Source of the DNA: Planctomycetia bacterium
Lineage (GTDB): Bacteria > Planctomycetota > Planctomycetia > Pirellulales > UBA1268
Direction of reading: 5' to 3'
NCBI GenBank assembly: GCA_021414115.1
Contig: JAIOPD010000071.1
Span: 88,123-152,122, forward strand
Length of the DNA stretch: 64,000 nt
Made by a program: the position numbers and the translations under genes. Shown one piece after another: positions 23,155 through 44,692 of this stretch (the stretch's first letter is position 1; each line of letters opens with the position of its first letter). The notes under the pieces were generated by a model. It did not search any database, had not been told where the DNA came from, and saw nothing but the letters and a program-made list of their open reading frames with translations.

Positions 23155-24480
23155 CGCGGGCTGGATGTCGACCGCGAGCGAACCCTTGTCGTCGGCGAGA
23201 CTTCCCGGCGGTTCGTTGAGCTTGACGTAGAGCGGTCCGTCGGTGACGGCCGTGAGGGTAGCCCGGGCACCGTCGCCGAGGATCATGAACCTCGGCCTGC
23301 CGCCATCCGCAGGCCGATCGACCCACTGCGCGGCGAGCAGGCGGCCCAGCGGGCGGCCGCGGTACCAGTCGAGCGAGATGCCGTCGGCCTCGCTTTCGAT
23401 CGTGGCGTCTTTCATCGAGCCGATCGTGCACCGGCCGGTCGCCAGAAGGTCGTATCGGCGGCCTTTCGCCAGCGCGAAGCCGGCATTTTGCCAGCCGCGG
23501 CCGGCGGCGACATCGATCCGCTGCTTCGATTCGAGCGCCGAGCCGGCCGACCAGTCGATCGCTGACCGCGCGAAGTCGTAGCCGTAATCGAGGTCGTCGA
23601 TGAAGGCCTCGAAATCGCGGGCGGCGCGCGGGGGATCGTAGCCGGGGAGGGCCGCGAGCCGCGTGTTGAACTCCGCGTCGAGCGTGCCGCGTTCGAGCTC
23701 GCGGAAGGCCGTGGCATACGCGGGATGACCCGCGAACATGGCGACGGCGGCCCAGCTCGACGCGTAGTCGGCGATCCGTGTGTGGTGGCCGGGGGGCGTG
23801 GCCAGCACGTCGGCGAGTGCGGGCGCCGTGCCCGCGGCATGCACGTCGCGAAGATTCTCGATGCGGCCGAGTTGCTCGACGTCCGTGGCACGATCCGGCA
23901 TCGGTGTCGGGACATACCGGCCGGCATTCCCAACCCCTTCGAGGCGGTGCGTGGCGAGATACTCCGCGATTCCCTCGTTGTACCACGTGGGAGTCGCCAG
24001 GCTGCGGACGGTGAGCGTGAAGGCATGCACGCCCTCGTGCAGGAGCAGGTGCCGGCGATAGGCGGAGTTGGACTGGTCCATCAGCCAGAAACGGTTGCGA
24101 TCGCAGAATCCGTTGACGAACTCGGGAATCGCATCGGGGAGCAGGCCCGCGGTGCGGAATCGCTCGCGATCGACGACCAGGCAGCCAAACGCCCGCCACG
24201 TGCGGAGCGATTCGGGTGGGAGCCGATAGTGACGACACCAGGCCGCGAACGCTTCGTCGAAGACCCGCGGTAGGTCGTCCACGCCGTCGCCGTCACGCGC
24301 TGGCCGGTCGGTCGCCAGGACCAGGTGGGTGGATTCGAGTACGCGAAGCCCGGCCCGTCGCGCCGTCATCTTCAGCGGCTCCACCGCCACGAGGTCGCTG
24401 GCCTGGGCGAGCGCGGATGCCAGCGCGGCCGCGGTGATGGCGGCTTGGACGGCGATCACGACGAGATTCACTCCACGCAT
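23131..24480 (-). CDS. Exported protein with HEGVH zinc-protease motif
   Basis: 449 aa from ATG 24480, which puts a signal peptide (LVVIAVQAAITAAALASALAQA) at the N-terminus; the track start at 24516 is an alternative. The middle (about residues 140-170) contains HLLLHEGVHAFTLTV, then WYNEGIAEYLATH, which is the HEXXH...NE-GxAEY arrangement of gluzincin-like metallopeptidases. The C-terminal third has beta-rich lectin-like phrases (RFMILGDGARATL). I do not recognise a named family beyond DUF1570-like secreted zincins. Tail-to-tail overlap with the phosphohexomutase gene. Confidence 0.7.
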   Translation of the reverse strand: MRGVNLVVIAVQAAITAAALASALAQASDLVAVEPLKMTARRAGLRVLESTHLVLATDRPARDGDGVDDLPRVFDEAFAAWCRHYRLPPESLRTWRAFGCLVVDRERFRTAGLLPDAIPEFVNGFCDRNRFWLMDQSNSAYRRHLLLHEGVHAFTLTVRSLATPTWYNEGIAEYLATHRLEGVGNAGRYVPTPMPDRATDVEQLGRIENLRDVHAAGTAPALADVLATPPGHHTRIADYASSWAAVAMFAGHPAYATAFRELERGTLDAEFNTRLAALPGYDPPRAARDFEAFIDDLDYGYDFARSAIDWSAGSALESKQRIDVAAGRGWQNAGFALAKGRRYDLLATGRCTIGSMKDATIESEADGISLDWYRGRPLGRLLAAQWVDRPADGGRPRFMILGDGARATLTAVTDGPLYVKLNEPPGSLADDKGSLAVDIQPASHADDRP

Positions 24481-24573
24481 TTCCCCCAGTTCACCCAGCC
24501 GCCGCCGAACCGGCAAGGCGAACCGTGGCTTGGCGGGGCAAGGTGATGGATTGGGCCGGAATGTCCGATCGCA

Positions 24574-25944
24574 GTGAACGGGGAGTCGGTGCTACAAGCC
24601 CGTCTCGCCAGGAGGGCGGACGCCGTGCGGCAGGGAAGCCGAGAACGTGCCGGTGCGCGACGCTGCGGAATCATCGCAGCGGTGTGCGTCGTCGTTGCAT
24701 CATCGCCGCCTGAAGCGGGAGCACAGACGCCCTCCGACGAGGCGAAGGTCAGCGCTTGGGCCAGCGGAGGAACATCGACCACGACGACGCCCGCCGACAA
24801 GGACGGCAAGCCAGGTGCGGGCGTCGCACCCGTTGGGGCGATTCCATTTTGGCAGGCCCCCGCGACGCCGCAGGCCGTCGTGCAGGGCGGGGCGATTCCG
24901 CCTGGCTGGCAGCCGCAGGCCGTGCCCTACCAGGGCATCGGGCCCGACGGGAGGCCGATGACGATGTACATCGCGCCGACGTACGTGTTTACCTATCAAT
25001 CGGGGCCGCCCGTGCTCGCCGCGCCCACGGTCAATCGCAGTCAGGCATACGGCGCGCCGCAGCAGCCCTATCCGCCTGGATGGAACTTCGCGACCAGCGG
25101 CGCGCAGCCGGTGACCCCGACGCTCCCGCCGGCGACCGTCGCGCGGTACCAGCCGACTCCTTATCAGTTTCCGACCGACTCACGGGCGCTCACCGGCACA
25201 CCGGTCGCGCCGCCGGCGGGCGTGCCCGCGCCGCCGCCACAGACATGGGGAACGGCTCCACCCGCGCCGCAGCCGCCGACGCAGTGGGGGGCGTCCGACG
25301 CCGCGCCGGCGGCCGCAGCGCCGTCATCAGGCGACTGGGTGACGGTCGTACCGCCGGCTGTTGCGGGCGCCGCGTTGGCCGCCGGGGCGACGGCAGCAGA
25401 CACGCCGTCGTCGGAGCCGCAGATGGCGGCGCTGCCGCCTCCCGTCACGCCGGTGCCAGCGCCGTCTTCGATTCCCGCGCAGCCGGTCAGTTCGAGTGGC
25501 ATGTCGTCACCGCCGTCCGCGAGTCGCGCGGCCAACTCGCATCTCTGGCGGGTGGTGGGCGTGAGCGACGGCGACACGGTGACCTGCCTCGACGAAAACA
25601 ACCAGCAGCAGAAGGTCCGGTTGGCGGAGATCGACGCTCCCGAGATCGGGCAGGACTACGGCAAGAACTCGCGGGAGGCGCTCGCCGGCATGGTGTTCGG
25701 CAAGACCGTCGAGGTGGTCGATGACGGCCGCGACCGCTATGGCCGCTGGATCGGCCACCTGTCCGTCGATGGAATGGACGTCAATCGGCAGATGGTGGCC
25801 ACGGGCAATGCCTGGCACTACGCCGCCTATTCGACCGACCAGAACCTCGCGGCCCTCCAGGCCCAGGCCCAATCGCAACGGATCGGCCTCTGGTCGCAGC
25901 CCAATCCGACGTCGCCGTGGGACTACCGCGCGAGCGGCAAGTAG
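24574..25944 (+). CDS. Exported protein with C-terminal thermonuclease (SNase) domain
   Basis: 456 aa, GTG start. An N-terminal basic segment and hydrophobic stretch (CGIIAAVCVVVASS) ending in EAGAQ look like a signal peptide. Residues about 40-310 are Pro/Ala/Gln-rich linker with a conserved-looking island (IPPGWQPQAVPYQGIGPDGRPMTMYI). The last about 135 residues are an SNase fold: VVGVSDGDTVTCL, VRLAEIDAPEIGQDYG, DDGRDRYGRWIGHL and MVATGNAWHY, retaining the catalytic Asp/Arg/Glu pattern. Likely a secreted or envelope nuclease; the long linker may tether it to the wall. Confidence 0.85.
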   Translation: MNGESVLQARLARRADAVRQGSRERAGARRCGIIAAVCVVVASSPPEAGAQTPSDEAKVSAWASGGTSTTTTPADKDGKPGAGVAPVGAIPFWQAPATPQAVVQGGAIPPGWQPQAVPYQGIGPDGRPMTMYIAPTYVFTYQSGPPVLAAPTVNRSQAYGAPQQPYPPGWNFATSGAQPVTPTLPPATVARYQPTPYQFPTDSRALTGTPVAPPAGVPAPPPQTWGTAPPAPQPPTQWGASDAAPAAAAPSSGDWVTVVPPAVAGAALAAGATAADTPSSEPQMAALPPPVTPVPAPSSIPAQPVSSSGMSSPPSASRAANSHLWRVVGVSDGDTVTCLDENNQQQKVRLAEIDAPEIGQDYGKNSREALAGMVFGKTVEVVDDGRDRYGRWIGHLSVDGMDVNRQMVATGNAWHYAAYSTDQNLAALQAQAQSQRIGLWSQPNPTSPWDYRASGK

Positions 25945-25947
25945 CAC

Positions 25948-27309
25948 TTGGCCGAGCGAGCCTTGAAAGAAGCCGTCTCTGAATCGCGGGCGTCGGCCAG
26001 CCGGCAGCGCTGGGTGATCTGTGCCGTCCTGTTTTTCGCCGCGGCGATCAACTACATCGACCGGCAGGTGATCGGGATTCTCAAGCCAACGCTCCAGGAC
26101 GAGTTTCACTTCAGTGAACGCGACTACGCGGCCATCGTGTTCAGCTTCCAGGCCGCCTACGCCGTGGGGCTGCTGCTGGCCGGCCGGATCATCGACCGAA
26201 TCGGGGTGCGGATCGGTTTTGCGCTGGCCGTCGTCGTCTGGAGCGTGGGGGCCGCGGTGCATGCGTGCGCCGACTGGCTGCCGTGGCTAAAACTGCCGAC
26301 GGTGTCGATCGACCCGCCCGCGGTGACCCTGCTGGGCGGAGCCGCGGCGGGCCTGGCGTTGGCCCGGCTCGTGCTCGGCATCGGCGAGGCCGGCAACTTC
26401 CCCGCCTCCATCAAGACCGTGGCGGAATGGTTTCCCAAACGCGAGCGGGCCTTCGCGACTGGCATCTTCAACTCCGGCACGAACATCGGAGCGCTCATCA
26501 CGCCATTGGTGGTTCCCTGGATCACGCTGCAGTTCGGCTGGCAGTGGGCCTTCGTGGTCACCGGCCTGCTCGGGTTCGCCTGGGTCGGGTGGTGGTGGCT
26601 GGCCTATGCACCGCCCGAACGACACCCCCGGGTGAATGCCGCCGAACTGGCCATCATCCAGTCCGATCCGCCCGAGTCGTCCGAGCGGGTGGCCTGGAGC
26701 AGCCTGCTGCCGCACCGACAGACCTGGGCCTTCGCACTCGGCAAGTTTCTCACCGATCCGATCTGGTGGCTGTATCTCTTCTGGGTGCCCGACTTTCTCA
26801 AGCGAAATCACGGGCTCGACCTGAAGACGATGGGGCTCCCGCTGATCGTGATTTACCTCGTGGCTGACATCGGCAGCATCGGCGGCGGCTGGCTCTCGTC
26901 GCACCTCATGCAGCGCGGCTGGTCGACGAACGCGGCCCGAAAAACGGCGATGCTCGTCAGCGCTCTGGCCGTGGTGCCGATGCTCTTTGCGGCGCAGGCC
27001 AAGAGCCTCTGGGTGGCGGTGGGCCTGGTGTCGCTCGCGGCGGCGGCTCACCAGGGCTGGTCAGCCAACCTCTTTACACTGGCGTCTGACATGTTTCCAA
27101 AGCGGGCCGTCGGGTCGGTGGTCGGCATCGGTGGAATGGCCGGATCGGTGGGCGGGATGCTGATCGCGCTCGTCGTCGGCGCCATCCTGGAGAAGACCGG
27201 CAGCTACGTGCCGATCTTCGTGATCGCGGCACTGGCCTACTTGGTGGCGCTCACCGTGATCCAACTCCTCGTTCCCAGGCTCGAGCCAGCCACGATCGAG
27301 CCCAGGTGA
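25948..27309 (+). CDS. MFS transporter, ACS/hexuronate type
   Basis: 453 aa, TTG start 3 bp after the preceding stop. Twelve membrane helices are visible. The first block INYIDRQVIGILKPTLQDEF, then GIGEAGNFPASIKTVAEWFPKRERAFATGIFNSGTNIGALI, is the signature of the anion:cation symporter family (ExuT-like). DFLKRNHGLDLKTMGLPLI and SANLFTLASDMFPKRAVGSVVGIGGMAGSVGGML follow. The predicted substrate is a sugar acid, not determinable more precisely. Likely translationally coupled to the thermonuclease gene. It is the last core gene before the island edge. Confidence 0.88.
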   Translation: MAERALKEAVSESRASASRQRWVICAVLFFAAAINYIDRQVIGILKPTLQDEFHFSERDYAAIVFSFQAAYAVGLLLAGRIIDRIGVRIGFALAVVVWSVGAAVHACADWLPWLKLPTVSIDPPAVTLLGGAAAGLALARLVLGIGEAGNFPASIKTVAEWFPKRERAFATGIFNSGTNIGALITPLVVPWITLQFGWQWAFVVTGLLGFAWVGWWWLAYAPPERHPRVNAAELAIIQSDPPESSERVAWSSLLPHRQTWAFALGKFLTDPIWWLYLFWVPDFLKRNHGLDLKTMGLPLIVIYLVADIGSIGGGWLSSHLMQRGWSTNAARKTAMLVSALAVVPMLFAAQAKSLWVAVGLVSLAAAAHQGWSANLFTLASDMFPKRAVGSVVGIGGMAGSVGGMLIALVVGAILEKTGSYVPIFVIAALAYLVALTVIQLLVPRLEPATIEPR

Positions 27310-27517: not shown

Positions 27518-27561
27518 AGCGGGCGAAGGGACTCGAACCCTCGACATCCAGCTTGGGAAGC
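27518..27561 (-). tRNA. 3' half of tRNA-Gly(CCC), probable integration (att) site
   Basis: On the minus strand the 44 bp run from the anticodon loop (GCTTCCCAAGC, anticodon CCC), through the variable loop and T-arm (GAGGGTTCGAGTCCCTT), to the acceptor 3' strand CGCCCGCT. The 5' half is absent: the bases before the loop break the anticodon stem and no GCGGGCG acceptor strand is found upstream. This is the usual form of a duplicated attachment site left when an element integrates into a tRNA 3' end. The geometry predicts the intact tRNA at higher coordinates, beyond the window. Confidence 0.7.
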
Positions 27562-27840
27562 AGCGGAGACGTAGTTCTAAGTCCAGCAGCCAAAGCACTT
27601 GCGGCTCGTCGACGCAAGCGTTGTACCGCTCGTTGTACCAGCTCTGAGGCCGGGGCGTCCGCCGGGAAGAGGCAGGCCTGCCGCGAAGCTCCTGTACTGG
27701 ATCACAATCGGGCGGGCACTGTCGGGCCAGCAGGTCAGCTAGAAGTCGCGGGCCTCGCCGAGCAACTCGCGGCACTTCCCCCCGAAGTACTCGCTGCCCT
27801 TCAGGTCCTGTTCAGCGGCCTGCCCCGGAGGAAATGATCG

Positions 27841-28107
27841 ATGCATACGGCTGCCGCTAGCTCTTGGACCGTCTACATCCTCCGCTGCCGCGACGGCTCG
27901 CTCTACACCGGCATCACGAACGATCTACCAAAGCGACTGAAGGCCCACGCCGCCGGGAAGGCGTCGAGCTACACCCGCAGCAGGCTCCCCGTGCGGCTGG
28001 CCTACCAGGAGCCCCAGCCGACCAAGTCCCGAGCCCTGAAGCGGGAGGTGGCGATCAAGATGCTCCCGCGATCCCAAAAGCTCGACCTGCTCACCCGGGG
28101 CCCCTAA
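27841..28107 (+). CDS. GIY-YIG endonuclease-domain protein (YhbQ/UPF0213 type)
   Basis: 88 aa. The single-domain GIY-YIG pattern is clear: WTVYILRCRDGSLYTGITNDLPKRLKAHAAGKAS, then TRSRLPVRLAYQEPQ and SRALKREVAIKMLPRSQKLDLL. The variant VYI...YTG and the late glutamate in KREVAIK match the small stand-alone YhbQ-like family linked to DNA repair or mobile DNA. The ribosome site is GGAGG. It is the first gene inside the predicted island. Confidence 0.88.
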   Translation: MHTAAASSWTVYILRCRDGSLYTGITNDLPKRLKAHAAGKASSYTRSRLPVRLAYQEPQPTKSRALKREVAIKMLPRSQKLDLLTRGP

Positions 28108-28130
28108 AGCTCATTGATTTCAATGAGCTT
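28107..28130. terminator. 24-bp perfect hairpin after GIY-YIG gene
   Basis: AAGCTCATTGA, 2 nt, then its exact reverse complement TCAATGAGCTT begins at the stop codon of the GIY-YIG gene. No long T tract follows, so it may be a bidirectional or processing structure rather than a classical terminator. Confidence 0.45.
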
Positions 28131-28216
28131 CAACGCTCAGAGCCCGACTGCCCAAATCCGCTCTCGGCGCTGATCCCAGCCCCGGCGAGGACGACGACCC
28201 GCGGTATGCAGGCCGA

Positions 28217-28426
28217 CTACCGCTCCATCTCCGCCCTGGCAGCCCGCAGGTGCTTGGCGTCGTCGGAACCGAACGCGTCGAGTCCGTCGTCGCTGGAGTC
28301 CATGACGGCCGCGTCGGCTTTCATCTCCTGGAGTGCCTGCCGAAATTGCTGCCGGACCGAGTTGCACCCCGCCGTGAAGACGGCCAGGACGCAGACGGCG
28401 ACGGCTAGGGATCGAGCGGGGTTCAT
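28217..28426 (-). CDS. Small predicted lipoprotein
   Basis: 69 aa from ATG 28426 (MNPARSLAVAVCVLAVFTAGCNSVRQQ). The hydrophobic signal ends in a lipobox FTAGC. The mature part is a short helical, charged stretch (QFRQALQEMKADAAVMDSS...KHLRAARAEMER). I do not recognise a family. Convergent with the GIY-YIG gene. Confidence 0.55.
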   Translation of the reverse strand: MNPARSLAVAVCVLAVFTAGCNSVRQQFRQALQEMKADAAVMDSSDDGLDAFGSDDAKHLRAARAEMER

Positions 28427-28635
28427 TGAGAGGAAGCTAGGCTCGTGCACACCGGCCGGTCAACGGCTATAGCCTGCGGCGTTCCCCACGGCGTTGGTCT
28501 GGCTCGGCGTCGCGATCTTGTGGCTCTTCAAGGCGTTCTGACACGCGCCCCGCATGCCAGACGCTTTCGATCGCTATCAAGGGCCGGTAGAACCTTTGAA
28601 TTGGCTGCGCTGCCCTTTCACACTCATCCCCGCCC

Positions 28636-29274
28636 ATGCCCGCCCCAATCCCCCTCCTCATCGCCTGCCCCACGGAACTCGTCCGGGCGGGCCTACGGGC
28701 GATGCTAACTGGCTCGCCCGTGAAGATCGTCGCCGAAGCCGAAACCGCGTCCAGCACCATCACGCTCGCCAAGAAGCACAAGCCCACCGTCGTGCTGCTC
28801 GACGCGGCCATCCCGGGCGGCGACGCGTTCGAGCTGATCAAGAAATTGGCCAAGACCCTGCCAGCCACCAAGTGCATCCTGCTGTCAGCCCTCGACAATC
28901 CGACCTACATGGCCCGGGCTCACGCGATCGGGGCCGCGAACTGCCTGCTCATGGGGTTCAGCCAGCGAGAACTCATCACGGCCATCGAGAGCGCCGCGGC
29001 AGGAAAGGCACCTTCGGGAGTGACACCATTCGCAAAGGTCGCGGCAGCGATGGGACTACGCGACCCTCAGGCTGCTCGAACCAATGGCCTGACGCCACGG
29101 GAAGGCCAAGTTCTTTCCCACGTCGCCTACGGTCTTTCCAATGACGAACTCGCTCGTGCCCTCGGCATCAGCATCGAGACCGTGAAGGAGCACGTCCAAA
29201 AAATCCGTAGCAAGATCGCCGCGAAGGATCGAACGCACGCTGCGGTCTGGGCGGTCAAAGCTGGGGTGGTGTAG
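28636..29274 (+). CDS. NarL/LuxR-type response regulator
   Basis: 212 aa. The receiver domain (residues 1-120) has the phospho-acceptor aspartate in PTVVLLDAAIPGGDAF, a Thr/Ser switch in CILLSALDN and lysine replaced near the end (CLLMGFSQ). Acidic residues at the metal site are poorly conserved at the very N-terminus (IACPTELVRAGLR instead of a DD pair), so phosphorylation may be atypical. The C-terminal LuxR helix-turn-helix is normal: LTPREGQVLSHVAYGLSNDELARALGISIETVKEHVQKIRSKI. No histidine kinase is adjacent. The target is unknown. Confidence 0.85.
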   Translation: MPAPIPLLIACPTELVRAGLRAMLTGSPVKIVAEAETASSTITLAKKHKPTVVLLDAAIPGGDAFELIKKLAKTLPATKCILLSALDNPTYMARAHAIGAANCLLMGFSQRELITAIESAAAGKAPSGVTPFAKVAAAMGLRDPQAARTNGLTPREGQVLSHVAYGLSNDELARALGISIETVKEHVQKIRSKIAAKDRTHAAVWAVKAGVV

Positions 29275-29283
29275 GGTCGCACA

Positions 29284-29622
29284 ATGGGCTTCATGGTCTC
29301 GGGTCGCTGTTCGTGCGGGTACGCTGCCAAAGGCCTTATGGTTGGCGTCGGCATGCGTGACCCCCGGGGCACATGGCTGGCGCCATGTATCTGCCGGAAG
29401 TGCCATCAGGCCGTCTCGGCAAACGTGCAGGCCAAGACCCTGAAATGCCCCAAGTGCAAAGCCAAAGGGGTCGAGCCGTATGTGGACCCCGACGCTGGCA
29501 AGGAAGAGGGCGAAGAGTACCCCAGTTGTGCTGCTTCGGAGCCGCTCTTTGACTCCGGGTTCGAATGCCCGGCCTGCGCCAAGAAGAGCCTGAAGTTCGA
29601 GTTTGCCGGGATGTGGGACTAA
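29284..29622 (+). CDS. Zinc-ribbon protein of unknown function
   Basis: 112 aa with three Cys pairs: CSCGY near the N-terminus, CICRKC with KCPKCKAKG in the middle and FECPACAKK near the C-terminus. This gives one or two zinc ribbons. Nine bp after the response regulator, with the CIA30-like gene 15 bp downstream, so it is probably in one operon. No family name recognised. Confidence 0.65.
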   Translation: MGFMVSGRCSCGYAAKGLMVGVGMRDPRGTWLAPCICRKCHQAVSANVQAKTLKCPKCKAKGVEPYVDPDAGKEEGEEYPSCAASEPLFDSGFECPACAKKSLKFEFAGMWD

Positions 29623-29637
29623 CCAGAGGAGCCAGCA

Positions 29638-30210
29638 ATGACCGCGACCAAACTCCCCCTGCTCTTGGCTGTGCTTCTCATGCAGGCGGTCGCGGAAAAG
29701 GCCCTCGTGCCGCTTCTGGATTTTGCTGGCCCCGAGGCGGCTGAGAAGTGGCAGGCCGTGAACGATGGCGTGATGGGCGGCGTTTCAGACGGCCGGTTCA
29801 AGATCACTCCCGAGGAAACCCTGGAGTTCTTCGGCACGCTCTCGCTGGAAAACAACGGGGGCTTTGCGTCTGTTCGGACCAAGCCCACGGAACTCGGCGT
29901 CAAGGCCGGGGATACGCTCGTCGTCCGAGTGAAAGGTGATGGCCGTGAGTACGTGCTGAACCTCTACACGAAGAGCCGCCGGATGGCTTTCTCGTACAGG
30001 GCGCCGCTACCGACCACGAAAGACGAATGGCGGGAGGTCGAGATCCCGCTGGCAGACTTCATTCCCACGGCCTTCGGCAGGCGCGTTCAGGGCATGGGGC
30101 CAGTCGAGCCGGACCAGATCAACGGGTTGGGCTTCATGCTCAGTGATAAGAAGCCGGGAAAGTTCCAGATGCAGGTCGAATGGGTGAAGGTGGTGCGGGC
30201 CGAGAAATAA
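29638..30210 (+). CDS. CIA30-like (NADH:ubiquinone oxidoreductase intermediate-associated 30) protein
   Basis: 190 aa with a short signal-like N-terminus (LPLLLAVLLMQAVAEKA). The fold signature of the CIA30 jelly-roll family is visible: WQAVNDGVMGGVSDGRF, LSLENNGGFASVRTK, GDTLVVRVKGDGREYVLNLYT, WREVEIPLADFIPTAFGR and INGLGFMLSDKKPGKFQMQVEWVKV. In bacteria this family is mostly of unknown, possibly carbohydrate-binding, role. Ribosome site AGAGGAG; last gene of the three-gene plus-strand run. Confidence 0.85.
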   Translation: MTATKLPLLLAVLLMQAVAEKALVPLLDFAGPEAAEKWQAVNDGVMGGVSDGRFKITPEETLEFFGTLSLENNGGFASVRTKPTELGVKAGDTLVVRVKGDGREYVLNLYTKSRRMAFSYRAPLPTTKDEWREVEIPLADFIPTAFGRRVQGMGPVEPDQINGLGFMLSDKKPGKFQMQVEWVKVVRAEK

Positions 30211-30244
30211 TCCCGGCCAGCAGCCCTCCGAATGCCCCCGGCCG

Positions 30245-30517
30245 CTAGTTCAGGCTGGGGTCTGAATCTGAATCATCGTCGAGATCCGGGTCGTCGCTCT
30301 CTTCACCAAGACCGTCAGTGGGGTCGAAGCACCGTCCGGCTGAATCCACGCAGAACGTGTAGGCCATCTCGAACGGCTCTGTGTCCGGGCCGAAGATGGT
30401 TTTCTTCACGATGCAGTCTTCACACTGGAAGACCGGCAACTCGTAGTCCCCGACAGAGACCACGCCCTCGCACTTGAGGAGCCGTGAGCATTTCGGGCAG
30501 TGGTAGACGTCGATCAT
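30245..30517 (-). CDS. Small zinc-ribbon protein with acidic tail
   Basis: 90 aa. The N-terminus MIDVYHCPKCSRLLKCEG and FQCEDCIVKK supply four cysteines for a zinc ribbon. The last 18 residues are almost all Asp/Glu/Ser. The ATG overlaps the stop of the upstream hydrolase gene by 4 bp (ATGA), so the two are translationally coupled. Family unknown. Confidence 0.6.
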   Translation of the reverse strand: MIDVYHCPKCSRLLKCEGVVSVGDYELPVFQCEDCIVKKTIFGPDTEPFEMAYTFCVDSAGRCFDPTDGLGEESDDPDLDDDSDSDPSLN

Positions 30518-30984
30518 GCGGGTTCTGATCTCCCCTCAACAGCCCGCAACAGGGCAGCCAGTGATTCCGGATCAGCAAGGCGATGATCGCGGCCGCCTTC
30601 GATAAGGCTCGTCTTGGCCAGTCCGGAGTTCGCCACCAGCTCGAGCGAGTCCTCGAACGGCACCACGTCGTCAGCCCGGGAGTGAAGAATCTGGGTGCCG
30701 GGCTTCACGCTCTTGGCCGTCCCCCACTTCTTCCACGCCGGGCAGATCAAGACGAGCCGGGCCGATCCAGACTCCAGATTCACAGCCACTGCTCCCCCAC
30801 GGCTTGAACCAACCACGACTTCGGGCTGGTGCTGGTCGAAGGCTGCTTGGGCCGTTGTGAGCGCCGCCTCGAAATCATCGTGGTCCAGTGCCGGCTCGAT
30901 AACCTCGTGGCCGTGCGACTTCAGGTACGTCGGCTTTACGCCCCCGACCACCGAATTCCAACCGTGCAGATACAGGACTTTCAT
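30514..30984 (-). CDS. Small alpha/beta hydrolase (RBBP9/YqiA-like)
   Basis: 156 aa. The first strand MKVLYLHGWNS supplies the oxyanion turn, the nucleophile elbow is VVVGSSRGGAVAV, and the acid and histidine are probably in HSRADDVVPFED and GRDHRLADP. This is the compact serine-hydrolase layout of YqiA/RBBP9 proteins. The substrate is unknown. It is coupled by ATGA overlaps both to the upstream 59-aa zinc-ribbon gene and to the downstream zinc-ribbon gene. Confidence 0.8.
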   Translation of the reverse strand: MKVLYLHGWNSVVGGVKPTYLKSHGHEVIEPALDHDDFEAALTTAQAAFDQHQPEVVVGSSRGGAVAVNLESGSARLVLICPAWKKWGTAKSVKPGTQILHSRADDVVPFEDSLELVANSGLAKTSLIEGGRDHRLADPESLAALLRAVEGRSEPA

Positions 30985-31160
30985 TCGTAGGCCGCCTGTT
31001 TCTCAGCCATGGCAGCTAGGCACCGCGGGCAATACCACGGCGCCGGAGTCTTCACGGGCTTCGGGCTGCGTTTTCGGCATTTGGCACAGAGGTATCTCTT
31101 GCCTTTTACCGCCGTCTTGGGCCGGTATCTCTTGCCGGTACGCGGGATGTTCTTGGGCAT
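30981..31160 (-). CDS. 59-aa zinc-ribbon protein (below ORF-track cutoff)
   Basis: Minus-strand reading from the ATG at 31160 gives MPKNIPRTGKRYRPK, then RYLCAKCRKRSPKPV and WYCPRCLAAMAEKQ, stopping at a TGA that overlaps the hydrolase start by 4 bp. Two CxxC pairs form a zinc ribbon in a strongly basic protein. The ORF track misses it because of length. The coupling to the next gene supports it being real. Confidence 0.6.
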   Translation of the reverse strand: MPKNIPRTGKRYRPKTAVKGKRYLCAKCRKRSPKPVKTPAPWYCPRCLAAMAEKQAAYE

Positions 31161-31172
31161 GCTTTTCTCCGG

Positions 31173-31418
31173 CTACCTGACGAGCACAGCCGCGACAGCG
31201 ATTCCAGCCAGCTCTATCACCCAGAAGATCAGCACCACCAAGCACCCGCGCGTCGTCCGGTTATAGACCCGGTTGTAGGCGGCTTTCCTCGGGTTCGTCA
31301 GCCAGCCCCAGCCTCTCGGTGCCTTGAGCCCGAGACCGTGCCGAACATATCGCTTCAGGCTCGTTCTGGCCGAGAGGCGTTTTTTCAGCGACGGGACTCT
31401 GAAGCCGAATCGGACCAT
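31173..31418 (-). CDS. Conserved small membrane protein with NPRKAAYNRVYNRTT motif
   Basis: 81 aa. The basic N-terminal half (PSLKKRLSARTSLKRYVRHGLGLKAPRGWGWLTNPRKAAYNRVYNRTT) is a pattern I recall from many small hypothetical proteins in mobile elements and varied phyla. One C-terminal membrane helix follows (CLVVLIFWVIELAGIAVAAVLV). Function unknown. It is 12 bp upstream of the 59-aa zinc-ribbon gene, same strand. Confidence 0.6.
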   Translation of the reverse strand: MVRFGFRVPSLKKRLSARTSLKRYVRHGLGLKAPRGWGWLTNPRKAAYNRVYNRTTRGCLVVLIFWVIELAGIAVAAVLVR

Positions 31419-31429
31419 ATCGCAGTCAC

Positions 31430-31738
31430 CTAGGATGCCACTGGGTCTACATGCTCTTTACCGGTCAGTTCGAACTCCTCTCGCGTGCGTTCGATGAAGC
31501 CTGCGACGACTTCACGATGACGACGATCTGGAATCAGGTGCATCAACGCCGGATAGTGCGCCTTGAACCACGCCCCGATAGCAGCTTTCTCGTTGCGCCT
31601 GACGTGCCCAGATAGACACATCACCAGTCGTCGCCATAGTCGAGCGTTGAACTGCGCAGGCCGGACCTCAGCAACACGTCCGGCAAGTCGATAGCCGACG
31701 TCGCGATAGCCCCGCTGCATCGACCCACTCCTCGCCAT
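31430..31738 (-). CDS. Hypothetical helical protein
   Basis: 102 aa from ATG 31738 (MARSGSMQRGYRDVGYRL); the track frame extends to 31822 without a ribosome site. Composition looks protein-like (LWRRLVMCLSGHVRRNEKAAIGAWFKAHYPALMHLIPDRRHREVVAGFIERTREEFEL) and mainly alpha-helical. No recognised family. It heads the minus-strand run of small genes. Confidence 0.45.
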   Translation of the reverse strand: MARSGSMQRGYRDVGYRLAGRVAEVRPAQFNARLWRRLVMCLSGHVRRNEKAAIGAWFKAHYPALMHLIPDRRHREVVAGFIERTREEFELTGKEHVDPVAS

Positions 31739-32039
31739 ACAACACCACCCGCGCACGTAGCTGGGGAAGCCATCGACCGTGGCATAACCCGCTCGCAATC
31801 TCCGCCGCCTCGTTGCCGCCATTGAAAACCAATGCCAAAGGATGGCGTCAGGCTACACCCCCTACACCGCGGGGGCCAAGAGGGGGGCGGTCAGTTATGC
31901 GAGCAAAATCACGCCTTCCAGAAGTTCACGATCAACGCCCTTTTCAAGGGCAGAAACGAGACACGCCCCAAGGTTGTCTCTCCGGTCTGGTTCAATTCGC
32001 GAACCGGATTACCCCGGCAACACCCCGACGGAGGCCCCA

Positions 32040-32150
32040 ATGAACGGTCCCGCGAAGAACAGACTGCATGACTATGAAGCTGGCTGGCTGACGCTGCACC
32101 TAGATATGGGCGTTGCGGAGAAGAAAGAACTCCGTGAGGACCAGAACTAG
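32040..32150 (+). CDS. Possible 36-aa small ORF
   Basis: An ATG at 32040 with a GGAGG 5 nt upstream opens a 36-codon frame: MNGPAKNRLHDYEAGW, then LHLDMGVAEKKELREDQN. It lies in the about 650-bp region (31739-32384) upstream of the cas operon where nothing else is evident. Protein-like composition and a good ribosome site are the only support. Confidence 0.3.
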   Translation: MNGPAKNRLHDYEAGWLTLHLDMGVAEKKELREDQN

Positions 32151-32384
32151 GTCGCGCAGCAGCCGATCGACGTCACGGACGAGCGGCGGGGAACGACGGA
32201 CGGAGCGGAAGCAGAGAACGAAACCACGGCAAAACGATGGATTGTGATTCCTCCCCGCAGTCATGGCATGCCCCCTATTACGAGGGCACTCTGAGGCCTA
32301 CGATAATCGGACTGAAACCAAATAGGCTCACGCACCGGGTGCGGTATTTGGATTTCAACAAAACATCTTCGAAAGGCTCTGCTT
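32151..32384. other. Upstream region of the cas operon
   Basis: 234 bp without a convincing gene. It is more AT-rich toward the end (about 32300-32370) and probably holds the cas promoter, but I see no confident -35/-10 pair. GAAAGG at about 32371 could serve as the cas6 ribosome site. Confidence 0.4.
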
Positions 32385-33011
32385 GTGAAGGTTGATCTGG
32401 TCTTCGCTGCGAAGGGCACGACCATCCCGACGGATCACGCCTACCAGTTGTACGCGGCCCTAAGTTCGTTGGTTCCTGCGTTTCATTCTGCAGAGTCACT
32501 GCTCCGATTTTCTCCGATCTCAGGCATAGGGCAGCCTGATGGCACGCTTCAATTAGGTCCGCACTCCTGTTTGCGGGTGCGGCTGCCGGCCGAACAAGTA
32601 CGAGTCGCCTTGCCGCTGGCGGGGAAGCGGTTTGATATCGCCGGGTCGTGGGTTCGGTTAGGCGTGCCCGCGATCCGCACGCTTGAGACGGCTCCAGCGG
32701 TAGTCGCCCGAATGGTCACCTTCAAGAACGCCGATACGCCAGAACAATTCCTGATCACAGCCCGTGCCAAATTGGCTGAGCTCGGTGTGGCTGGCGAACC
32801 GAGCCTCCCCATCCATCTGGAAGGTAAGCGAGCGGGCGAGCCGAAGCGCCGGATCATCCGCATCAAGGGCGTGTCGATCGTGGGCTACTCGCTGCTGGTG
32901 GGCGAGTTGACCGCGGCGCACTCGCTGGTACTCCAGGAGCAAGGTCTTGGCGGCCGTACCCATCTTGGCTGTGGGTTTTTTTCACCCGTAAAGGCCGGGG
33001 CCAATAAATGA
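32385..33011 (+). CDS. cas6: Cas6 pre-crRNA endonuclease, MYXAN (Cmx6) type
   Basis: 208 aa, GTG start. It opens with MKVDLVFAAKGTTIPTDHAYQLYAALS, the RAMP beginning of the Cmx6 family, and ends with the glycine-rich loop LQEQGLGGRTHLGCGFFSPVK common to Cas6 proteins. The middle has GVSIVGYSLLVGELTAAHS. Cas6 cuts the repeat at the base of its hairpin to release crRNAs. It is the first gene of the operon, and its stop overlaps the cas3 ATG by 4 bp. Confidence 0.85.
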   Translation: MKVDLVFAAKGTTIPTDHAYQLYAALSSLVPAFHSAESLLRFSPISGIGQPDGTLQLGPHSCLRVRLPAEQVRVALPLAGKRFDIAGSWVRLGVPAIRTLETAPAVVARMVTFKNADTPEQFLITARAKLAELGVAGEPSLPIHLEGKRAGEPKRRIIRIKGVSIVGYSLLVGELTAAHSLVLQEQGLGGRTHLGCGFFSPVKAGANK

Positions 33012-35263
33012 CCCTCGACCCAAAACACCTGTGGGCGAAAAGCAAACGGGATGACGAACCGGAACGACCTTCCATGAGGTTGCTCCAGCATTTGAAGGAC
33101 GTTCATGCCGCGGCCGGCAGTGTGCTGGAAGCGACAGCCAATGATCAACTGCGAGCCTTAGGACTCGACCCATCCCACTATGGCGCTCGCTTTCGCCGCT
33201 GTGTGCAACTCGCTGCCGCCACCCATGACCTCGGGAAAGCCAACGATCACTTTCAGGGGATGCTGCGTGGCAGCCGGGATGTAAGGGAGAATCCGCAGGG
33301 AATGCGTCACGAGTGGGTGACAGTACTCGTGCTTCAGAGGCTCAAGGAGTGGCTCCTCCCGGTCATTGATGGAAGTGAGGTTGATTTCTCCATTGTTGAG
33401 TGGGCAGTCGCCGGCCACCACCCAGCACATGACCACGCGAGTCCACCGGAGTCCGTCCCGACAGGAGGTGGAAGTGGGCCAGAGATGACGCTTCTCTGCG
33501 GACATCCAGACTTCTCGGCAATCCTGGATTGGCTCGGTGATGTATTTGGGCTGCCAAGCCCCCCGCAGTTCGAGGACATCGAGCGGGACCTGTCAGGGAG
33601 CACCGGCGTTTTTGAGAGCGAGATCCTGCCATGGAAGCGAAAGACCAACCGCCTTTGGAATCGGCTGGCGGAATCGCCTGATTCAAAACTCGTTGCCGCC
33701 GTAAAGAACTGCGTGGTCGCAGCGGATATAGCCGGTTCTGCGCTACCCAAAGCACGCCCCCATGATCGGGACCGCTGGTCCTGGATTGATGGAGTTTTCC
33801 AGGACCGTCCTCAACTGGGCGATCTTCAGGCAGTAGTGGACCACCGCCTCGGGATAAACAAACCACGTGAATTCCAGCAGCGTGTCGCGGACTCAACCGC
33901 ACGGGTCACGCTTGTAAAGGCCGGGTGTGGGGGGGGGAAGACGCTAGCCGCTTACTTGTGGGCGGCGAAGAACTACCCAACTCATCGGTTGTACTTCTGT
34001 TACCCCACGACAGGCACCGCCACTGAAGGGTTTCGCGACTACCTGTTTGACGAGGCCGAGCAGACACCACGTGTTGGGGCAGACCTGTTCCACGGGAGAG
34101 CGGACGTCGACTTTGAAATCGTCCTCGGCGCTGAGCGGGACATCGACGACGAGGAGGTCCGGCTGGAGTGTCTGCGGGCATGGCGGACGCCGGTGGTGGC
34201 CTGCACGGTCGATACTGTGCTCGGTGTGATGCAAGTGAATCGTCGCGGGCTTTTCAGTTGGCCGGCGCTCGCCCAGTCAGCTTTTGTATTCGATGAAATC
34301 CACGCGTATGACGACGCTCTGTTTGGAGTGCTGCTTCGCTTTCTCAAGGACGTAAGCGGCGTGCCGGTGTTGCTGATGACGGCGAGTCTGCCCGAGTACC
34401 GGGAGGCCGCGCTGCGAAATGTGTTGGGCCGCCTCGATCCGATTCCGGGCGAGAGCGATCTTGAGCAGTTGCCTCGCTATCACAAGCATCAACTCGCAGG
34501 CATCAATCCGGCCGAGGTTGTACGCCACACGCTTGACATGGGCGGCAAGGTGCTCTGGGTGTGCAACACGGTTGGCCGAGTGATGGATGCTGCCAAGCGG
34601 ATGGTGGACCACTTTCCGCTCATCTACCACAGCCGATTCAAATACGAAGACCGCGTTGAGCGGCACCGCGACGTCATCGCTGCGTTTCGAAAAGAGGGAC
34701 CGGCGCAAGCAATTTGTTCCCAGGTCGCGGAAATGTCGCTTGATTTGTCAGCGGATTTGCTCGTCACCGATCTCGCACCGGTGCCGGCGATCATTCAGCG
34801 GCTTGGTCGCTTAAACCGGCGGGCAAAGCCAGGCGACCCAACAAAGCCGTTCGTGGTCATCGAACCTGATGGGCCTCTGCCATACACCCAGAAAGAGTTG
34901 GATGCAGCGAGGGAATGGCTTAAACGATTGGACAACGACGGGATTGCACAATCTCAGTTGGTCGATCGATGGAAACAGCCGGAGACTCCGTCAGTGAGGC
35001 CGGGTGGCAGCGCGTGGCTCGATGGCGGCCCTGTGACAGTGCCAAGGGAATTGCGCGCCCCCTCCGTCGGCATCAGCGTACTCATGGCTGAGGACGTGCC
35101 GCGCGTGAGGGCGTGTCCAAGAGGCCTGCCGCGCTTTGTGCTGCCGATGCCCGTCCCGCCGCGAGGATGGCAGGCGTGGCCTCGAGAACACGGTCTGCCG
35201 ATCGCCCCGGCGGGAGCAATCAATTACGACCCGAAAGTTGGTGCCGAATGGCAAAAGTCTTGA
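33008..35263 (+). CDS. cas3: Cas3 helicase-nuclease (HD + DExH)
   Basis: 751 aa. The N-terminal HD nuclease (residues 20-240) has HLKDVHAAAG, AAATHDLGKANDHFQ, MRHEW and VAGHHPAHD. The SF2 helicase follows, with Walker A KAGCGGGKTLAAYLWA, motif II VFDEIHAYDDAL, motif III LLMTASLPEYR and motif VI IQRLGRLNRRAKPG. It is recruited by Cascade to nick and degrade target DNA. ATGA overlap with cas6; cas8 starts 16 bp before its end. Confidence 0.95.
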   Translation: MTLDPKHLWAKSKRDDEPERPSMRLLQHLKDVHAAAGSVLEATANDQLRALGLDPSHYGARFRRCVQLAAATHDLGKANDHFQGMLRGSRDVRENPQGMRHEWVTVLVLQRLKEWLLPVIDGSEVDFSIVEWAVAGHHPAHDHASPPESVPTGGGSGPEMTLLCGHPDFSAILDWLGDVFGLPSPPQFEDIERDLSGSTGVFESEILPWKRKTNRLWNRLAESPDSKLVAAVKNCVVAADIAGSALPKARPHDRDRWSWIDGVFQDRPQLGDLQAVVDHRLGINKPREFQQRVADSTARVTLVKAGCGGGKTLAAYLWAAKNYPTHRLYFCYPTTGTATEGFRDYLFDEAEQTPRVGADLFHGRADVDFEIVLGAERDIDDEEVRLECLRAWRTPVVACTVDTVLGVMQVNRRGLFSWPALAQSAFVFDEIHAYDDALFGVLLRFLKDVSGVPVLLMTASLPEYREAALRNVLGRLDPIPGESDLEQLPRYHKHQLAGINPAEVVRHTLDMGGKVLWVCNTVGRVMDAAKRMVDHFPLIYHSRFKYEDRVERHRDVIAAFRKEGPAQAICSQVAEMSLDLSADLLVTDLAPVPAIIQRLGRLNRRAKPGDPTKPFVVIEPDGPLPYTQKELDAAREWLKRLDNDGIAQSQLVDRWKQPETPSVRPGGSAWLDGGPVTVPRELRAPSVGISVLMAEDVPRVRACPRGLPRFVLPMPVPPRGWQAWPREHGLPIAPAGAINYDPKVGAEWQKS

Positions 35264-36864
35264 AGTCGCCTGCGCCTGATCGGCTCACGATGCGATTATT
35301 TGACCCCGGCATGTCGATGCTGCATCGGGCCGGGCTGGGAGGGTTGGCATGTTCACTCAGGGCGATGGAGTCTCAGTTTCCCAAAGGGAAGTGTCCATGG
35401 CTCATAGAACCACATGCCGTGACATTGGACTTCGGTGATCCGAGTAAAGCCGGAAAATACCTACGACGACTTTTTGAGTGTTCGTTCACCGTAGGGAAGA
35501 AAGACGGGCTGATCCGCCTGCCGGGTCAATATGCCATTGAACCCAGCGTTGCTGTGTTGGCTGACCTGCAATCTGGACTTACCCTCACCTTCCTTCAGCA
35601 CGGCAAGGTTCGTCAGCTGGCGAAGGAGCCAACTGCGGTTAGCTACGCCCCCGAGGGAGACGACGCCCCGCTGATCGTTGAGTATCGCAAGTGTTCGGGT
35701 TTCAAGCATCAGGAGGGCTGGAAAGTCTTCGTGGAGCGGGACGGCACCCTGACCCGCAAACAGCTGCGGGTCGATGGTCCCATCAATCCTGGTGCCGTCG
35801 TGCGACACGTTGCCTTTACCAGCCACACAGCGGCCGAAGACCCCCCGGAGCGCATGCTGCCACTGTACTTCGCCCCAGTCGGGTGTTTGACATTGTCGGT
35901 CAACCGCGGGGTCGCCGCGTTGCTCGTGCCGGAGGTGGATGACCTGACGTCGTTTGTGGAAGACCGCCCGAGCCTTACGCCCACGACCGCCCGTGAATGC
36001 CAAATAGCCAACGCCGCTGATGCGGTGCTCCAGGCTCAGTTGCGAGTGCGCGGCAGGAAAACGGCGAAGGGATTGGACGTTCCGGGATGCTACGCCATGA
36101 CGTTTCAGCCGACGATATGGTCCACCCAACAGAAGTCGCGGGTCGCAACTGTTCACGTTCCCAGAGTGCCACCGGACGACCCAATGCTCGATCGGTTTCA
36201 ACGAGCATGGGACCGACTGCCGAACCGTGTGGTGACCCGTACCATCAAGGAACACAGCGGTAAGGGCAAATCGAAAAAAACAACCGAACGACAGCAATCA
36301 TTCCGCGCAGACAGCGTTGTTCGGCCGCTGGTCGCAGAGAATCTGGCGCTCGGTCGCCGGTGGTACGCAGGGTTCCATAGGTTGATGACAAAGGCTAATC
36401 CAGCCACAGACAAACCTTTTCGGGATTCCATCCAGTTTGAGCGCAAAGGGCTACATGACATGATCTCTGACAAGAAAATGTGGGACGAGGCCGGGGAGCA
36501 GTTCGTCGTCCAGGCAGTCCACGAAGCCATAGCCAGCCGGCTCGGCCAAATCCGGGCTGAGACGGATGGCGAAAGCTCCAAGCCGCTTTCCCAGGCGACA
36601 AAAAACCGTTGGCAGCGTTTCCGCGAGAAACTTCGCCTCGATCTGGCGGGGGCAAAAACCGAGGCCCATGTTCGGTTCGCGCTTGCCGATCTGTTTAGCC
36701 GCGGCAACGTCAACCGTGTACTTCGCGAACACTGGGCAACCGTGCTGCCGGTAGTCCGCAAAGATTGGCAGCTTGCCCGTGACCTCGGACTGCTTGCCTT
36801 GGCCAGTTATTCCGGTCGTGGCACGAATGATTCGGCCGACATCCCAAACAACCCCCAGGAGTGA
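35248..36864 (+). CDS. cas8: Cas8 large subunit, Cmx8/MYXAN type
   Basis: 538 aa from the ATG at 35248 (MAKVLKSPAPDRLTMRLFDPGMSMLHRAGLGGL); the track start at 35113 is inside cas3. The opening with HRAGLGGLACSLRAM resembles the Cmx8-type large subunits of Myxococcus dev-like loci. Residues about 300-400 contain WDRLPNRVVTRTIKEHSGKGKSKKTTERQQSF, a basic stretch that may bind nucleic acid. In type I systems the large subunit recognises the PAM. Position between cas3 and cas7 fits. Subtype name rests on gene order and this similarity. Confidence 0.8.
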   Translation: MAKVLKSPAPDRLTMRLFDPGMSMLHRAGLGGLACSLRAMESQFPKGKCPWLIEPHAVTLDFGDPSKAGKYLRRLFECSFTVGKKDGLIRLPGQYAIEPSVAVLADLQSGLTLTFLQHGKVRQLAKEPTAVSYAPEGDDAPLIVEYRKCSGFKHQEGWKVFVERDGTLTRKQLRVDGPINPGAVVRHVAFTSHTAAEDPPERMLPLYFAPVGCLTLSVNRGVAALLVPEVDDLTSFVEDRPSLTPTTARECQIANAADAVLQAQLRVRGRKTAKGLDVPGCYAMTFQPTIWSTQQKSRVATVHVPRVPPDDPMLDRFQRAWDRLPNRVVTRTIKEHSGKGKSKKTTERQQSFRADSVVRPLVAENLALGRRWYAGFHRLMTKANPATDKPFRDSIQFERKGLHDMISDKKMWDEAGEQFVVQAVHEAIASRLGQIRAETDGESSKPLSQATKNRWQRFREKLRLDLAGAKTEAHVRFALADLFSRGNVNRVLREHWATVLPVVRKDWQLARDLGLLALASYSGRGTNDSADIPNNPQE

Positions 36865-36870
36865 TCATCC

Positions 36871-37794
36871 ATGAGTCTGCATGTGTTCGCCAACGTCGTC
36901 ACCCCCTTCGGCACGGCCGCAAATAACCGTGCCGAGACTGAGGGAAACATCACAACCCTTCAGAAACTCATCTGGCAAGGAGATACGCACAGCACCGTCA
37001 GTGCTGAAGCCATTCGGTTTGCCCTGCGCCGCCGGCTCGCGGAGGCGGAGCCGACCAACCGTGTGTGGGATGAGGCGGCTCGTGCCAATGTGTGGGACGA
37101 TCACCAGTTCAAAGGGTGGGCGACAGAGAAGGGGAAAACGTTCATTGACGACGACCTGCTTGGCTACATGATCGCCGAAGCTGCGAAGGAGGAGGGCGGC
37201 AACGATGGGAAGGGCAAGGCGACCGTCCGGCGAGCAGTTCTCGAGGTTACGCGGGCCGTGTCGCTCACACCTTGGGCCGGCGATGTGACCTTCAACGCCG
37301 CTTCTCCGGGAGCTACGCCATCTGCTCAGAAGAAGGGCAGCAATCCTGTGCCCTACGGTACCGAGGTGCATGCAACCCGGTATCAGTACGGCATCGCGAT
37401 GACTCCGGAGCGATTGCATGAGAAAAGCCGAGCAGCCAAGGCTCTTCATGCGCTCTGCGGCCTACACACCGTCGCAGGCAACCACGGCAGGTTTCTTTTC
37501 GATTTCTCGCCGGAAGTGGTGGTCATACGAATCACCCAAGACCCGGCTCCGCGGCTCTTGTACTGCTTTGGAACGCACGACGATGGAAAGACGGTGCACG
37601 CGAAAACCCTGATCGATCGGCTTGTCTCGGAAGACATCAGGGCCGAGGAGCTGATTGTTGGGATGGCGGATACGGGATCGACACTAGCGGCTGATCTAAA
37701 AGAGAAGGGCGTGACCGTGCTGGGGGTGATGAAAGCCTGCGAAAGAGCGGTTGTGGAAATCAACAAGCACCTCGGAATCGGTCCCAAGGAGTGA
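36871..37794 (+). CDS. cas7: Cas7 backbone subunit (Cst2/DevR family)
   Basis: 307 aa. The N-terminus MSLHVFANVVTPFGTAANNRAETEGNITTLQKLIWQGDTHSTVSAEAIRFALRRRL is the typical Cst2/DevR start. Then FIDDDLLGYMIAEA, RRAVLEVTRAVSLTPWAGDVTFNAASP and GTEVHATRYQYGIAM follow. It forms the helical backbone of Cascade along the crRNA. The gap to cas8 is 6 bp and to cas5 4 bp. Confidence 0.92.
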   Translation: MSLHVFANVVTPFGTAANNRAETEGNITTLQKLIWQGDTHSTVSAEAIRFALRRRLAEAEPTNRVWDEAARANVWDDHQFKGWATEKGKTFIDDDLLGYMIAEAAKEEGGNDGKGKATVRRAVLEVTRAVSLTPWAGDVTFNAASPGATPSAQKKGSNPVPYGTEVHATRYQYGIAMTPERLHEKSRAAKALHALCGLHTVAGNHGRFLFDFSPEVVVIRITQDPAPRLLYCFGTHDDGKTVHAKTLIDRLVSEDIRAEELIVGMADTGSTLAADLKEKGVTVLGVMKACERAVVEINKHLGIGPKE

Positions 37795-37798
37795 CCCC

Positions 37799-38422
37799 AT
37801 GCTTGGTGTGTACGTGACGGTGCCTGTCGCTTGCTTCCGCAAAGGACTGGCCAGGGAATACCTGGAAACCGATCCACTTCCTCCACCAGCGACCTGCTAC
37901 GGATTCCTGCTATCGCTTGTTGGCGAGACCGACCGGAATAAGTACATCGACTGTCGGGTTGCGCCCGTGTTGTTGAGCAAGCCTCCGACAAGCACGGTTT
38001 TGCGGACTGTCTGGAGAGTGAAACAGACGCCGCTCGGCTCACCGGGGAATACCCGTCCTGACTACCAGCAATTGCTGACCAACGTTGAGTTGGCCATCTG
38101 GCTGGCGTCGTCAACGGACCTAGAGGACAGGGTGACAAATGCGTTGTCCAACCCGGGTTCCACTGTGCGGTTTGGCGGCTTGTCTCTGGGCGAGAGTACG
38201 CACATGGTTGATGAAGTGTCCCTGCTCGATCGAGTGCGGGCGCGTTTGCCCGCAACCGGGCATGCATTCCTCGAACGGGAAGACAAAAAAGGCCGTCTCA
38301 GTATGCCCGTGTGGGTCGACCACGTAGGATCGGCTGGCAGTCGATATGTGACTGGCGACTTAGAATTGGGGCCCCTCGTCGCGCCTGCTCTCGATCGCAT
38401 GCCGCGAATCTCGCCGGTCTGA
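37799..38422 (+). CDS. cas5: Cas5 (DevS/Cmx5 family)
   Basis: 207 aa from ATG 37799 (MLGVYVTVPVACFRKGLAREYLETDPLPPPATCYGFLLSLVGE). The PPATCYGFLLSLVGE helix is the Cas5 signature, followed by a beta-rich RAMP body. It binds the 5' handle of the crRNA. The track start at 37751 is inside cas7 and is rejected. It lies 10 bp before cas4-cas1. Confidence 0.9.
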   Translation: MLGVYVTVPVACFRKGLAREYLETDPLPPPATCYGFLLSLVGETDRNKYIDCRVAPVLLSKPPTSTVLRTVWRVKQTPLGSPGNTRPDYQQLLTNVELAIWLASSTDLEDRVTNALSNPGSTVRFGGLSLGESTHMVDEVSLLDRVRARLPATGHAFLEREDKKGRLSMPVWVDHVGSAGSRYVTGDLELGPLVAPALDRMPRISPV

Positions 38423-38432
38423 GACATGAACT

Positions 38433-40094: not shown

Positions 40095-40113
40095 ATCAAC
40101 CAGAGGGGTGCTC

Positions 40114-40413
40114 ATGCCCGACGCCAAATGGTGGCTCGTATGCTATGACGTGCGTGACGACAAGCGATTGCGAAAGTGCGCACAACATATGGAGGGATAC
40201 GGCAACCGACTTCAGTACTCGGTGTTCCGCTGTTGGCTGACACCGCTTCAAGTGGAGCGGTTGCGATGGGAACTTACGAAGAAGCTGGCCGTTGAAGACG
40301 AGGTGCTCTTCATTCCGTTGTGCGACCGATGCGTGAGCGGTGTAGCAGGAATTTTCGCCCGTGATCGCCCAACTGAGTGGGCCGAACAGCCGCCCCGCCA
40401 TACAGTTGTATGA
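40114..40413 (+). CDS. cas2: Cas2 adaptation subunit
   Basis: 99 aa from ATG 40114 (MPDAKWWLVCYDVRDDKRLRKCAQHMEGYGNRLQYSVFRCWL). The first strand VCYDVRDD with its acidic residue, the QYSVF strand and the VEDEVLFIPLCDRC end are standard Cas2. The track start at 40072 overlaps cas1 and is not preferred, since GAGGGG precedes 40114. It forms the Cas1-Cas2 integration complex. Confidence 0.93.
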   Translation: MPDAKWWLVCYDVRDDKRLRKCAQHMEGYGNRLQYSVFRCWLTPLQVERLRWELTKKLAVEDEVLFIPLCDRCVSGVAGIFARDRPTEWAEQPPRHTVV

Positions 40414-44685: not shown

Positions 44686-44692
44686 CTGACCT

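Follow-up and report, generated by a model that had tools for sequence, protein, structure and literature searches.

The 44-nt remnant of a tRNA-Gly(CCC) gene described here is very probably the attR site of an integrated element of approximately 54.9 kb. As read from its sequence, the integrase gene of this element spans its own attachment site (attP), such that integration would exchange the C-terminus of the integrase. The remnant lies on the minus strand at 27518-27561 of the analysed stretch of 64,000 nucleotides (the window), reads gcttcccaagctggatgtcgagggttcgagtcccttcgcccgct, and takes in the CCC anticodon loop and everything 3' of it up to the acceptor end; the 5' half of the tRNA is absent beside it. 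ARAGORN returned no tRNA calls over the window, and an Rfam search of the window gave no match at gathering scores. Across the whole genome (G000), the fragment occurs once in the window and once, exactly, at C14:17102-17145, where an intact tRNA-Gly(CCC) (C14:17102-17174(-), equivalent to L002:1501-1573(-)) has it as its 3' portion. The bases bordering the repeat differ between the two copies on both sides, and the coordinates of the fragment are therefore exact. A tyrosine integrase gene (C14:15415-17148(+); PF00589, E=1.1e-13) adjoins the intact tRNA on the element side, with an excisionase-like HTH_17 ORF (C14:14993-15370) just upstream of it. Chromosomal DNA on the left is followed by the displaced fragment, the element with the integrase at its far end, the regenerated tRNA and the right-hand chromosome, which is the orientation produced by integration into the 3' end of a tRNA gene. 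Shortly to the right of the fragment, at 28-29 kb, GC content falls from about 0.69 to about 0.60. Direct repeats, a tyrosine integrase at the tRNA end, and a site that is empty or differently occupied in relatives together identify a tRNA island. These results support the island interpretation of the first-pass annotation, which had read the fragment and its missing 5' half from the sequence. It had also foreseen a second copy of the 44 bp within an intact tRNA-Gly(CCC) and a tyrosine recombinase next to it; each was found, the recombinase in the predicted orientation. The annotation had placed this pair further right along the same DNA; the pair lies on a different contig, because an insertion sequence breaks the assembly.

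Contig C65 closes with the window, which makes up its terminal 64 kb, and the left end of an ISL3-like element occupies the final 141 bases; the right end of one opens C14, and full copies sit elsewhere in the genome. The 8-bp target duplication AAAAATAT found at both ends indicates that C65 and C14 flank a single insertion, and the 1,581-bp length of a sister copy sets the size of the integrated element at about 54.9 kb. A genome assembled from metagenomic data into 144 contigs, with 2.76% contamination, could in principle join unrelated or mis-binned contigs, in which case the 44-bp match would not bound one element. This is scarcely credible here, as the target duplication spans the break, the 44-bp repeat is exact and correctly oriented, and a relative (G180) keeps the gene order on a single contig. 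That contig carries homologues of two stretches of the element (window 61.6-62.9 kb and C14 13.2-17.2 kb) with their order kept, and its integrase is 95% identical to that of the window element. The earlier proposal that everything from 27.56 kb to beyond 64 kb belongs to one element is borne out by the insertion sequence ends, the duplication and the gene order in G180. The coordinates of the features are given in Table 1.

Table 1. Features of the integrated element and its left flank in the window
Feature	Position in window	Strand	Remark
Chromosomal left flank	23155..25958	.	Adjoins tRNA-Gly in relatives
MFS-like gene between conserved flank and attR	25948..27309	+	MFS-like from sequence reading, not Pfam
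attR core, displaced tRNA-Gly(CCC) 3' end	27518..27561	-	44 bp, exact repeat of C14:17102-17145
Integrated element, left ~36.5 kb	27518..64000	.	After the IS interior, continues in C14:1-17145
Orphaned integrase gene 3' end, 91-codon tail plus stop	27562..27837	+	In frame across predicted attP
P' arm-type repeat, GTTGTACC-gctc-GTTGTACC	27620..27639	+	Matches integrase-side GTTGTACC-aatt-GTTGTACC, C14:16954-16973
Protein with a GIY-YIG domain; the element's first separate gene	27841..28107	+	
Type I-B (MYXAN-like) cas6, cas3, cas8, cas7, cas5, cas4-cas1 fusion, cas2	32385..40413	+	
CRISPR array of 28 repeats, 36 bp each, all identical	40656..42666	+	
Macro-domain protein	43286..43804	-	
Target duplication AAAAATAT, 8 bp	63852..63859	+	Repeated directly after IS right end near C14:139-146
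ISL3-like IS left end, where the contig breaks	63860..64000	+	Right end opens C14

The same chromosomal site was compared among relatives. In G228, G050 and G025, the left flank (23.2-26 kb) lies near tRNA-Gly without this island, and in G188 and G168 different elements occupy the same tRNA-Gly site; synteny of 27.6-64 kb, which would have contradicted the island interpretation, is thus not conserved. At the G228 site, contigs C90 and C115 (L064/L065) have an exact 55-bp stretch in common, which stops at the att core, at the tRNA. This overlap resembles an assembly fork, perhaps because the population is mixed for occupancy of the site. The G050 site retains a scar of about 0.5 kb with the final bases of an integrase gene, and about 2.5 kb separates the left flank from tRNA-Gly in G025. 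Two att cores about 0.7 kb apart on G224:C610 (L062), with integrase 3' and tail-side remnants between them, represent a nearly deleted element. The tRNA-Gly site is a hotspot with stacked remnants. Gene content had been described as changing from core to accessory exactly at the fragment. The element does begin there, but the MFS-like gene just to its left is missing at the corresponding G228 position, and a gene about 80% identical is found on separate contigs in other relatives. The roughly 150 bp to the left of attR (window 27319-27474) are part of a dispersed repeat family with more than 12 copies (77-82%) in the genome and many in G050.

The cargo includes a complete type I-B (MYXAN-like) gene set with its array (window 32385-42666), a PD-(D/E)XK protein, a DnaB-like protein and IS genes. 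A DUF1257 protein (45538-45906) accompanies an AAA ATPase (49426-50982); both show 74-84% identity with the other element that occupies this site in G168, which shares genes like those of window 45.5-56 kb at this level of identity, and the CRISPR region had no match in that element. The CRISPR and ATPase modules of the first-pass annotation are thus on the element. Of its macro/ART pair, the macro-domain protein was recovered, and the ART partner was not confirmed. The ORFs near the macro-domain gene are without Pfam matches. Among the element proteins scanned against Pfam and PHROGs, which covered part of the genes, none was a conjugation or virion structural protein.

The relationship between the integrase gene and the attachment site was absent from the earlier annotation. 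On C14, the integrase frame crosses the 44-bp core, encoding RAKGLEPSTSSLGS, and meets a TAG directly afterwards that comes from the 5' half of the tRNA. At the predicted circle junction, the frame instead stays open for 91 more codons (window 27562-27834) and ends in GLPRRK. The window tail holds no ATG, GTG or TTG codon downstream of the core; with those starts, it could therefore be translated only as part of the integrase or from a TTG inside the core. The attR sites of G188, G168 and G267 encode the same tail, at about 40-58% identity to that of the window according to the aligner used, with score z of 12-20 against shuffles. Each tail comprises a stretch overlapping the arm repeats, a variable linker and the motif LAxxLAxLPPExxAALxxLFSG; most of the linker is poorly conserved. 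Tail pairs gave NG86 dN/dS values of about 0.24-0.5 on these short, divergent sequences, and the codon-position excess in tail DNA was significant in only two of six pairwise comparisons. AlphaFold2 modeled the C-terminal part of the tail as a helical hairpin (pLDDT block means of 81-94) and the rest as disordered, with a pTM of 0.30. A shared degradation tag at the tail ends was considered and set aside, the C-termini having no common motif by eye. The integrase as integrated has 577 residues, with its catalytic domain whole and no tail, and the attP junction was not found in the window's own genome. In its catalytic box, the His present in most relatives (AMRHSS) is Val (AMRVSS), a change also seen in integrases of 95% (G180) and 85% (G258) identity. 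With this His replaced, the window element's copy might be weak.

The same arrangement extends well beyond this genome. Among 297 genomes sampled within one order, 46 had an integrase homologue, as did 50 of 249 in a class-level sample. Most close relatives with a named record are planctomycete MAGs. Thirty order-level and 30 class-level integrase loci were surveyed, several of them in both sets. At all tRNA-bearing loci (29 order-level and 26 class-level), across many tRNA identities, the integrase ORF ends inside or passes through an antisense tRNA. As a control, the reading frames were compared over a stretch that begins where the catalytic domain ends and reaches 42 nt into the antisense tRNA (a median of 240 nt plus these 42 nt). 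The integrase frame was open at 48 of 48 loci and each other frame at 1 of 48; the core begins approximately 60-90 codons past the catalytic domain. Four loci without a recognised tRNA (L167, L168, L172 and L018) have ends that look damaged or truncated. To view both ends at once, 60-100 kb was taken from each of seven relatives whose att ends lie on one contig, 7.2-21.7 kb apart, at tRNA-Cys, -Arg, -Ala, -Val (twice), -Gly and -Met. In all seven, the integrase frame passes through the core and stays open for 54-77 further codons, longer than either other frame. An in-frame tail beyond the core was found in 11 of 11 elements with an attR, covering six tRNA identities.

A doubled arm repeat of the form N8-N4-N8, identical on either side of the core, occurs in all eight elements compared (the seven relatives and that of the window), with the P arm 137-148 bp left of the core and the P' arm about 60 bp right of it. 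Their arrangement is the one expected of arm-type integrase sites, which they are predicted to be. Related tails also accompany cores that are shorter and lack a close T-arm match upstream (G105, G137, G192, G276 and others). A second orphan-tail subfamily (L093, L094, L096 and L097) has GDVKSDV-type arm peptides, corresponding to GACGTC repeats, and its tails adjoin shorter sequences resembling only the 3'-most part of a tRNA. Several more distant homologues on viral contigs stop about 15 residues after the catalytic domain, which suggests that the C-terminal extension is a separate addition and not part of catalysis. The window integrase had no match among plasmids and phages, and no free element was found there.

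The unsplit form was sought in 397 genomes with a pattern of doubled arms on both sides of a core, and two genomes matched; the integrase loci examined before this search contained no attP signature. On G250:C516, a single ORF of 594 codons starts with the N-terminal and catalytic domains, crosses a tRNA-Val-like core with arms on either side and finishes in the tail. The terminal 77 bp of contig C38 from the same genome are identical to the integrase-core side of C516 and run into an intact tRNA-Val. We infer that this exact contig-end overlap is the trace of a de Bruijn assembly fork, and such a fork implies that integrase-core-tail and integrase-core-tRNA junctions are both present in the assembly. 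The two junctions could reflect a mixture of circular and integrated forms, or tandem copies; no terminal overlap was seen in the unsplit contig. The pattern with the window's exact arms was absent from viral contigs. A generic arm pattern gave 13 viral-contig matches, with no integrase-tail fusion among them; the open-frame ones proved to be repetitive or unrelated sequence.

L215 (G536) was likewise rejected as an attP, since an intact integrase and tRNA-Val lie 9.9 kb away and the junction is one with the integrase remnant of an older element. There, the final codons of the older integrase run in frame into the tail that belongs to the next element; judged by this junction, a newcomer can probably pass its tail on to the integrase already in place. 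Final codons of an older integrase also precede attR at L059, L061 and L092 (left of the core), as at L215. In these stacked integrations, the incoming tail thus stands in frame behind the resident integrase remnant.

Element boundaries, core, arm sites, frame continuity, conserved tail and one unsplit ORF in a relative are established at the level of sequence, and they suggest the following cycle. The excised circle would encode a long integrase consisting of the catalytic domain, a P-arm linker, a core peptide of 14-15 residues that is the antisense of the tRNA, a P'-arm linker and the helical-hairpin tail. Recombination in the anticodon-loop region would restore the tRNA and cut the integrase gene just after the core. 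The cut gene would acquire the host-supplied TAG, and the tail would be stranded at the far end of the element (27562-27837), leaving in the chromosome a short integrase with a whole catalytic domain and no tail. The long and short forms presumably act differently, so that the product of the reaction would reset the enzyme. Most likely, the long form would favour integration, and the short form would be integration-poor, stable, or excision-competent with the HTH_17 protein. The tail itself would most likely favour the integration complex or adjust the integrase level, and without it the integrated element would stay stable until excision is prompted by the HTH_17 protein.

Integrase 3' ends that overlap att sites are common in phages and islands, and the locus might accordingly be an ordinary tRNA island in which the overlap is an accident of a GC-rich genome and the DNA beyond the core is a non-coding P' arm. 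Parts of the tail (VVLSP, KRCTxxCTS) do coincide with conserved DNA sites. However, this explanation is unlikely, as accidental openness would hardly single out the integrase frame in 48 of 48 cases against 1 of 48 for each other frame, nor in all 11 attR tails. The C-terminal helical motif lies outside the DNA sites, tail dN/dS is below 1, and the ORF in G250 is unsplit. Even less probable is a reading of the tail as a small gene of its own at the left end of the element, for example one for a recombination factor. Internal start codons in some tails (G188, G168) would allow it; nevertheless, the window tail has none of the usual starts after the core, tails always begin in the integrase frame at the core, and in G250 the tail is fused to the catalytic domain.

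A further possibility concerns not the tail but the fate of the enzyme. In archaeal suicidal integrases (PMC8371274), the gene follows the same logic, and decayed, stacked remnants are common at the present site; the tailless integrated form could thus be inactive, and excision would need integrase in trans. We regard this as possible but doubtful, since the entire catalytic domain lies upstream of the cut and several related integrases end just past that domain without a tail. The exchange of an integrase C-terminus by integration remains our preferred reading of the locus.

Archaeal SSV-type suicidal tyrosine integrases (SSV1, pTN3, pT26-2) carry attP inside the integrase gene, which integration splits, at a site usually of 40-50 bp and often of tRNA sequence; excision by integrase supplied in trans has been proposed for them (PMC8371274). 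The present element shares an attP within the integrase coding frame and a gene severed by integration. However, the SSV-type split separates Int(N), which is short, from the catalytic Int(C), whereas here the catalytic domain stays whole and the C-terminal tail alone is lost. SSV-type integrases also carry PF16795 (Phage_integr_3) and have archaeal hosts, whereas only PF00589 was found here, in Planctomycetota. Mycobacteriophage BPs has attP in its repressor gene, and integration removes a C-terminal stretch, so that the protein changes with the state of the cell (PMC4557955). The likeness lies in an attP inside coding sequence and a C-terminus trimmed by integration; in BPs the repressor gene is cut, and here the integrase itself. 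The BPs scheme also has a long form tagged for degradation and a truncated form that is the more stable, whereas the tail C-termini here have no common degradation motif by eye. Islander-type tRNA islands (PMC4383910) share the displaced 3' fragment, the regenerated tRNA, the adjacent tyrosine integrase and the empty or differently occupied sites in relatives. The integrase frame that continues through the tRNA core into the opposite element end sets the present element apart. Lambda-type arm-binding integrases likewise have arm sites that are repeated left and right of the core, which would suit heterobivalent binding; here, in contrast, both arms are doubled as N8-N4-N8, inside the coding frame and at fixed distances.

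A 2021 review described self-disrupting recombinases as exclusively archaeal (PMC8371274), and the limited open-access literature searched contained no bacterial integrase of the self-splitting kind. The self-splitting arrangement is nonetheless found across one bacterial class, in a milder version that leaves the catalytic domain whole. How integrases choose between integration and excision is a central question, for which the usual answer is a separate directionality factor; here, DNA rearrangement itself alters the integrase. The arrangement also offers a testable system and a signature for the exact ends of islands in Planctomycetota, namely an integrase frame running through an antisense tRNA, doubled arms and an orphan tail. 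Moreover, a CRISPR-Cas system is carried by such an element. We tentatively propose, at somewhat less than even confidence, that planctomycete integrases of this family are switched by their own product, the long form existing only when the element is circular or is given a tail by a later integrant, and the short form only in the chromosome. If this is true, the integrase C-terminus would be a DNA-encoded sensor of integration state and superinfection.
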